Positions 16,296-22,958 of a DNA stretch of 33,349 nucleotides are shown in pieces. The DNA is taken from the NCBI GenBank assembly GCA_016874535.1, contig VGUA01000021.1:1-33349 (forward strand), given 5' to 3'. The position numbers were made by a program, and so were the translations under genes. Numbering within the stretch: the stretch's first letter is position 1; each line of letters starts with the position of its first letter. Origin of the DNA: Gammaproteobacteria bacterium. Lineage in GTDB: Bacteria; Pseudomonadota; Gammaproteobacteria; Ga0077536. The notes below the pieces were generated by a model. It searched no databases. It was not told where the DNA came from and was given only the letters and a program-made list of their open reading frames with translations.

Positions 16296-16363
16296 GTGCA
16301 TACTCGGAAAAAACGACTCTGGCCCTGCTGAGTCCACGCCGTATCCGACGAGCAAGTTGATGC

Positions 16364-16387
16364 CTTGCTTATCGAATGATAAGCAAG
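16364..16387. promoter_or_regulatory. Perfect 10-base inverted repeat with 4-base loop
   Basis: CTTGCTTATC and GATAAGCAAG are perfect complementary arms around GAAT. No T-run follows on either strand, so it does not look like an intrinsic terminator. With its position in the divergent region upstream of the hisD-like promoter, an operator or an upstream regulatory site is more likely. Its right arm overlaps the second operator-like copy. Confidence 0.45.
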
Positions 16388-16399
16388 AACTTCTTGCCA
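16385..16399. promoter_or_regulatory. Operator-like palindrome, copy B
   Basis: AAGAACTTCTTGCCA repeats the element at 16251-16265 with one mismatch at the central base and in the same orientation, 134 bases away. It is wedged between two inverted repeats (16364-16387 and 16393-16415). A repeated palindrome in one intergenic region suggests a regulator that binds two sites, possibly with looping. Confidence 0.4.
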
Positions 16400-16415
16400 G
16401 GCCCCTTCTGGCAAG
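16393..16415. promoter_or_regulatory. Inverted repeat, 8-base arms
   Basis: CTTGCCAG and CTGGCAAG are perfect arms around a 7-base loop. The left arm reuses the TTGCCA of operator-like copy B. No T-run follows. Its role is unknown; it may belong to the same regulatory cluster or to the edge of the adjacent repeat array. Confidence 0.35.
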
Positions 16416-16427
16416 ACACGGTCCGGC

Positions 16428-16630
16428 GCCCGGCGCTGGCCCCTTCGCGCTTCGCACTGCGTGCGGCGCGCGTCGGGTTCAATCGCCAGCCGGCTTTGAA
16501 CAATTCAGCGGAACGGCTTTTTCGAGAGTGCTGGTGAGCGGATGTGCGGGGGATGCCCTGTCGCGGACATTGGAGTTCGTCCGCGGAGGGGCGCCCCCTG
16601 TGCAGCCGCGTTGGCACGGCCAAGGCCGCC
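16428..16630 (+). repeat. Structured intergenic repeat, copy 1 (203 bases)
   Basis: This unit is followed directly by a second, closely similar copy. Both begin GCCCGGCGCTGG and end CGGCCAAGGCCGCC. It contains a GC-rich small hairpin near the 5' end and a long imperfect hairpin at 16538-16609, with the perfect core GCGGAC/GTCCGC. Short open frames through it are in different phases relative to the flanking genes and look non-coding. Together with the next copy it fills most of the gap between the hisD-like and Mo-hydroxylase genes. Confidence 0.85.
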
Positions 16631-16834
16631 GCCCGGCGCTGGCCCCTTCGCGCTTCGCACTGCGTGAGGCGCGCGTCGGGTTCAATCGCCAGCCGGCTTT
16701 GGACAATTCAGCGGAAGGGCTTTTTCGAGAGTGCTGCTGAGCGGATGTGCAGAGGGATGCCCTGTAGCGGACATTGGAGTTCGTCCGCAGAGGGGCGCCC
16801 CCTGTGCAGCCGCGTTGGCACGGCCAAGGCCGCC
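16631..16834 (+). repeat. Structured intergenic repeat, copy 2 (204 bases)
   Basis: A head-to-tail duplicate of the preceding unit with scattered substitutions and one extra base. The 3' part (16741-16813) folds as a long imperfect hairpin: GCGG/CCGC outer arms, several paired blocks, GCCC/GGGC, then GCGGAC/GTCCGC closing a 10-base loop. A 9-pair hairpin including G-T pairs is possible at 16650-16672. The remaining 185 bases to the next start codon (16835-17019) show no gene or clear promoter. Confidence 0.85.
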
Positions 16835-17019
16835 GCGAATGGCAACGAGCGGATCGGCTGATGGTAGAGGCGGCATCAGTAGTGGTAGGTTCGCCGTGCC
16901 CCTCCATGTCGACCCGTGGTGCATTCACGACCGGGCGGCACGGTGGGAATGACAACAAACGAATCGCAGCGCTCTCCTACGGATTCCCCGCAGGAACCAG
17001 GGCGCCCCAAGGGGGAGAG

Positions 17020-22255: not shown

Positions 22256-22335
22256 GGGCTGCAGCATACCGCCAATGCCTGCCGTGTGATGTGAACCGGT
22301 TCCGGATCCCTTGAGCGGGGACGTCGATGCCGGGC

Positions 22336-22538
22336 GGCTGCCCTGGCCTCGCCACATGCGGCTGCACAGGGGGCGGCCTTCCGCGGACGAACCCCAATGT
22401 CCGCTATAGGCCATCCCCCTGCACATCCGCTGGGTGATGCTTCAGGAAGCGCTCAAGGTGAGGATATTCAAAGCCGGCCGGGGATTGAACCCGTAGCGCG
22501 CCGCACGCAGTGCGAAGCGCGAGGGTCAAGCGCCGGGC
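22336..22538 (-). repeat. Structured intergenic repeat, copy 3 (inverted, 203 bases)
   Basis: The reverse complement matches the two copies at 16428-16834 along its whole length, though more diverged in the middle. It keeps the GCCCGGCGC start, GCGCTTCGCACTGCG, GGGTTCAATC, and the long hairpin (22358-22430) with core GCGGAC/GTCCGC. It occupies most of the 307-base gap between the 61-residue protein and the VOC gene; the rest of that gap shows no feature. Its orientation is opposite to copies 1 and 2, so inverted copies flank the Mo-hydroxylase operon. Confidence 0.85.
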
Positions 22539-22562
22539 GGCTGACCGGGCCCGGCCGACTTC

Positions 22563-22958
22563 TCAGCTGCGCTGGACGAATTCCACCACGTTGCCGTCTG
22601 GACCCCGCACCATCGCGATGAACACGCCGGGCATGAGTTCCTGTCTGGGAATGTCGAAAGCTACGCCCGCCCGCTCGCAGTCGGCGCAGATCTCCTCGAG
22701 ATTGCTCACCTGAAAGGTGAGATACCGATAGCCGAGCGCCTTGGTCAGACCGACCTCACCTGCAGGAGGAACCTTTTTGGGGTCCACCAGCTTGACGAAA
22801 CTGTCACCGAAAGCCAGCCGGTGCATATGGCCAAAAGGAATCGGGAGTTCACCCAGTTTCTGCAGGCCGAGGACCCCCTGATAAAAGGCAAGGCTGGCGG
22901 TGATGTCCTTGACGAGGATGCCGATATCGAGAGCGTTCTTGGCGGGAATCATGCCCAT
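22563..22958 (-). CDS. VOC-family (glyoxalase/dioxygenase fold) protein
   Basis: A 131-residue single-unit VOC protein with two beta-alpha-beta-beta-beta modules: DIGILVKDITASLAFYQGVLG near the N terminus, YRYLTFQVSNLEEI in the middle, and RGPDGNVVEFVQ with the usual metal-binding Glu at the end. The first metal-ligand position (usually His in the first strand) is not His. The ATG at 22958 has GGAG 7 bases upstream; a longer frame to 23099 lacks support. The function may be that of a lyase, epimerase or dioxygenase. It is divergent from the gene at 23117. Confidence 0.88.
   Translation of the reverse strand: MGMIPAKNALDIGILVKDITASLAFYQGVLGLQKLGELPIPFGHMHRLAFGDSFVKLVDPKKVPPAGEVGLTKALGYRYLTFQVSNLEEICADCERAGVAFDIPRQELMPGVFIAMVRGPDGNVVEFVQRS

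Follow-up and report, generated by a model that had tools for sequence, protein, structure and literature searches.

A mosaic repeat of two long palindromic hairpins in intergenic regions of two sister gammaproteobacterial species

Two-hairpin units in the window

In the window, by which we mean the whole 33,349-nt stretch of DNA analysed, the spacer separating hisD from the divergent FAD-dehydrogenase gene (16296-16858) carries two head-to-tail units of ~203 nt on the plus strand, each composed in order of a hairpin A, a 37-nt linker, a hairpin B and a 16-nt linker, with a start-to-start spacing of 203-204 nt. The first unit comprises hairpin A (16423..16498, ~75 nt, fold of -40.5 kcal/mol), the 37-nt A-B linker (16499..16535), hairpin B with its GCGGAC/GTCCGC inner stem (16536..16609, ~75 nt, -51.3 kcal/mol) and the 16-nt B-A linker (16610..16625). 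It is followed by the second hairpin A (16626..16701), the second A-B linker (16702..16738), the second hairpin B (16739..16813) and a segment (16814..16836) that holds a B-A linker and the opening bases of a third A, which is truncated; the tandem homology ends there. Both A hairpins matched model R2 and both B hairpins model R1. The tandem homology spans 16409-16836, slightly wider than the 16428-16834 given in an earlier sequence-only reading of this DNA.

That reading had described tandem units of about 203 bases that differ by scattered substitutions and one indel around a perfectly kept GCGGAC/GTCCGC core, and the alignment agreed with it on each of these points. The two units share 96% identity and differ at nine positions: hairpin A and its linker to B account for five, all substitutions, and hairpin B for the other four, of which three are substitutions and one is a 1-nt indel. 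The core is the same in both. The "small 5′ hairpin" that it had placed at the start of each unit turned out to be the full hairpin A, as long as B. It had further proposed that paired positions are conserved and loops vary, which holds across the wider family only: in the two units themselves, B differs at four positions, two of them in the outer stem (the indel, and a G-to-A change that breaks a G-C pair) and two in its internal loop, with no change in the apical loop.

A third A-linker-B copy, absent from the earlier reading, was found on the minus strand at 22329-22543 with ~79% identity, lying ~20 nt past the stop codon of a glyoxalase-like gene. It consists of hairpin A (22469..22543, model R2), a 36-nt A-B linker (22433..22468), hairpin B (22358..22432, model R1), in whose stem a compensatory change has turned a C-G pair into G-C, and a B-A linker with the first ~12 nt of a truncated A (22329..22357). 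Protein coding was rejected, as the open reading frames across the array had no family match and the indels were not multiples of three (successive units start 203 and 204 nt apart in the window, and 206-212 nt apart in an array on contig C85), in agreement with the earlier statement that no protein is evident.

Two other structures were observed in the hisD/FAD-dehydrogenase spacer. At 16357-16384 lies a perfect 10-bp palindrome, CTTGCTTATC-gaat-GATAAGCAAG, whose TTATCGAATGAT core is kept in a sister species (G003, below), which suggests a putative operator. Just 5′ of the array, a 9-bp hairpin (TCTTGCCAG/CTGGCAAGA, 16392-16416) is terminator-like on the minus strand, and none was seen in the aligned spacer of the sister species.

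Arrays, folding and gene context in the draft genome

A genome-wide search for further copies, set beforehand as a refutation test, was performed on the draft genome of this uncultured bacterium (3.08 Mb, 189 contigs) and found six arrays of 2-7 modules, with more in the sister species. They hold at least 11 B and at least 10 A modules, numbers that are lower bounds, given repetitive arrays in a fragmented assembly. The two window arrays read ABAB and AB, the C85 array B(AB)3, the two C51 arrays BAB (C51a) and ABA (C51b), and the C94 array BA. Within any array all modules share one strand. Whole hairpins are the units of this mosaic, and in this genome the array boundaries adjoin whole hairpins. 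The A-B linker measures 36-37 nt at 7 of the 8 junctions here, although its sequence varies between loci, and the B-A linker 16-23 nt; the corresponding lengths in the sister species are 29-30 and 43 nt. The A-B unit was duplicated in tandem within an array: local tandem copies are the most alike (97% for A and 95% for B in the window, 99% for A in C85 and 97% for B in C51a), and identity between loci is mostly below that within arrays. Subfamilies with CATCTGACTT and CATTGGAGTT loops were found side by side in both species.

No clear sequence relation was seen between A and B. BLAST of the unit against the whole draft genome, down to E 10, returned no partial copies elsewhere above chance-level short matches, and the inner B core was never found alone in the genome even when 2 mismatches were allowed. 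If A and B were the two ends of a miniature element (MITE) belonging to a classical DD(E/D) insertion sequence, the element would be short, non-coding and dispersed, as this family is; but no inverted repeat joins A to B, BA and BAB arrangements and single modules are found as well, and the ends are shared with no other sequence of the draft genome beyond chance-level short matches; we regard this origin as highly improbable. On another contig, two tandem palindromes of ~92 nt, with a 92-nt spacing, lie directly after a purD-like gene (C6:29130-29297; L014, G000). They match hairpin A in the apical core CTTCGCACTGCGTGAGGCGC only and differ in the outer arms, and may possibly represent a related repeat family.

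The folding of the hairpins was then compared with that of shuffled sequences. With RNA parameters on the plus strand, B folds at -42 to -55 kcal/mol and A at -33 to -49 kcal/mol, which is 3.0-8.4 sd (16 copies of B) and 1.6-6.7 sd (14 copies of A) below dinucleotide shuffles; therefore, the hairpins are not due to chance. Covariation in the predicted stems, the second refutation test, left the structural reading standing, with a few compensated pairs: columns 15-64 (three sequences) and 22-57 (one sequence) in B, and columns 2-73, 3-72 and 11-63 in A. The observed covariation score was reached by 22 of 500 shuffles for B and by 1 of 500 for A. Since most stem pairs are invariant and the copies are related, this support is moderate. 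Quasi-palindrome correction could yield the same compensated pattern without selection.

Gene context was assessed with mechanical open reading frames filtered by codon composition, and with Pfam/NCBIfam for the window genes. By these gene calls every locus appears intergenic, and several lie 5-45 nt from a stop or start codon. The first window array and C51b lie between divergent genes, C51a and C94 between convergent genes, the second window array after a gene on the same strand, and the C85 array antisense between co-directional genes; in the sister species, C44 and C259 copies precede gene starts. Orientations as varied as these speak against one common role as a sense-strand RNA, and they count against the proposal that the family is a multiplied functional RNA or cis-acting mRNA element, such as a two-hairpin RNA, an attenuator or an mRNA stabiliser. 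The constant A-B spacing, the very stable hairpins and the compensated stem pairs, with covariation above most shuffles, would suit this proposal, but the plus strand gives the more stable fold of B in 15 of 16 copies and the minus strand that of A in 11 of 14, which leaves no single strand best for the whole unit as RNA. Moreover, Rfam gave no match above the gathering threshold (sub-threshold matches only, at E up to 5), no terminator-like T-run occurs inside the array, where no GC-rich hairpin is followed by a T run, and the sister species lacks the element at both window loci. The "RNA element" suggested by the sequence-only reading found nothing specific in its favour, and we consider an RNA role quite unlikely.

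Filled and empty sites and the probable spread of the family

The sister species G003, of the same genus, whose contigs match JAURMM01 (a Gammaproteobacteria MAG), contains five B and about five A modules. Covariance models detected neither A nor B in any of the 34 other genomes of the order that were searched, with the best ~135 candidates per genome scored, a depth at which weak relatives may escape; this limits the family to two sister species among these 36 genomes of the order. The exact A core occurred in none of the 368 other genomes in a sample of 369 from the class (G003 lies outside this sample), and plasmid and phage records and viral contigs gave no match. A pattern scan of the genome collection returned the five contigs of the sister species and two others, from Nakamurella and an Acidobacteria MAG; neither of the latter is surrounded by an outer palindrome, and both were taken as chance matches.

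Comparison of orthologous sites between the two species revealed filled and empty states. The hisD/FAD-dehydrogenase spacer (16296-16858) is 561 nt here vs 148 nt, element-free, in G003, and the GST/glyoxalase region (22309-22569) is 259 nt here vs 21 nt, again element-free, in G003; the two loci are 6 kb apart, and at both empty sites the same flanking genes are present and intact. Thus, copies were gained or lost between the species. Gain in the lineage of the window would be the simpler reading than loss in G003, because the family is in no other genome of the genus. At three further loci (C94, C51a and C51b) the same junction between genes is occupied by elements in both species, with changed module content, for example BA here vs ABA in G003. 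Two empty and three shared loci together indicate that the family is dispersing, and from these positions some insertions appear to predate the species split and others to follow it. In the sister species, shortened copies were also observed (G003 C51 and C224; L036, L034), in which hairpin A lacks its apical part or most of the hairpin, with mostly the 5′ arm left in C224; such copies look as expected for hairpin deletion during replication.

On these grounds, we consider it probable that the family is a lineage-specific, non-coding and non-autonomous BIME-like mosaic of two long palindromes, whose spread involved insertion as well as local tandem duplication. The "non-autonomous mobile element" of the sequence-only reading gained support from the filled and empty sites and from the lack of coding, and we infer that the family is non-autonomous. 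An enzyme that handles single-stranded hairpins would copy or insert A/B hairpin DNA into intergenic sites, a candidate being a Y1/HUH-type transposase, e.g. a RAYT working in trans, or a transposase that has since been lost; tandem copies would then result from slippage or from unequal recombination among the direct repeats, and a copy lying close to the end of a gene may also happen to serve as a transcript-stabilising hairpin. It is also conceivable, if doubtful, that a putative ssDNA enzyme recognises the apparently unrelated A and B together, as two hairpins at a set distance, which would make the family a hairpin mobile repeat served by no known RAYT.

Several findings count against insertion. 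One Y1 transposase gene (PF01797) is present in the genome (C11:10603-10926), scoring 69.7 bits against the NCBIfam REP-associated tyrosine transposase model NF047646, below the cut-off of 80. This RAYT-like gene is flanked by several GGTGACAGTTACC inverted repeats (L046:1965-2630, G000 C11), and no A or B lies near it; G003 has one RAYT-like gene of the same length. The link to a RAYT raised earlier was thus not found, and the gene was rejected as the cognate partner of A/B, having its own, different flanking repeats. Di Nocera et al. (PMC3733652) report RAYT genes whose flanks are long TIRs with no relation to GTAG repeats, a description that the GGTGACAGTTACC-flanked gene fits. In addition, BLAST of the unit against the whole genome to E 10 brought up no transposon whose ends match, the copy number is low relative to typical REPs, and inspection by eye revealed nothing convincing as a target-site duplication at either empty site, the flanks being too diverged to define one.

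A rival account does without transposition: the copies would have arisen by ectopic recombination, gene conversion or replication template switching at hairpins, with quasi-palindrome correction, rather than selection, keeping the stems near-perfect. The lack of a definable target-site duplication and of a partner transposon speaks for it, and the species-specific linker lengths, despite three shared loci, hint at within-genome homogenisation. However, whole arrays are cleanly present or absent at two loci with the neighbours intact, for which insertion is the simplest reading, and the occurrence of both the CATCTGACTT and the CATTGGAGTT loop subfamilies in both species means that homogenisation is incomplete. 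An origin without transposition was judged rather unlikely, though it deserves some weight.

Comparison with known palindromic repeats

A GTAG-tagged REP is described as a 20-40 bp palindrome with an unpaired GTAG at one end, the RAYT gene is flanked by the same repeat, and there are usually >100 copies per genome (PMC3733652, PMC2817692). Measured against that description, hairpin B resembles such a REP in having GTAG directly before the GC-rich inner stem in 11 of 16 copies, and the family likewise is intergenic and resides in a gammaproteobacterial host with a RAYT-like gene. In contrast, the GTA of B sits in an internal loop within a longer stem instead of at the end and none occurs at the end of A, the hairpins are ~75 nt vs 20-40 bp palindromes, 11 B and 10 A modules (lower bounds from a 189-contig draft) stand against usually >100, and the RAYT-like gene is flanked by GGTGACAGTTACC and not by A/B.

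BIMEs are intergenic mosaics of REPs in alternating orientation with linkers (PMC2817692). The A/B family is itself an intergenic mosaic of palindromic units separated by linkers, and it shares with BIMEs the alternating palindromes, the alternating linkers, the whole modules as units and the tandem amplification (PMC2817692). It differs in that the REPs of a BIME alternate in orientation, whereas A and B always lie on the same strand within an array and look unrelated, and in that A and B are each 2-3 times the length of a REP. Length, tag position, RAYT flanks and copy number all fail to agree with REPs, the modules do not alternate in orientation, and the family was not filed as a REP.

The BOX elements of pneumococcus consist of distinct hairpin-forming modules in the fixed order boxA-boxB-boxC, with one module variable in copy number. 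By description only, the A/B family resembles them as a mosaic of distinct hairpin modules with variable module copy number; it differs in phylum, and the order of BOX modules is fixed. Collectively, the A/B family is a palindromic intergenic mosaic repeat outside the REP family by published criteria. With it, the known palindromic intergenic repeats gain a small and seemingly young family limited to a pair of sister species, in which shared, gained and expanded loci can be ordered between two genomes, and, since filled and empty sites both exist, it provides a workable case for how hairpin repeats move without a matching RAYT.
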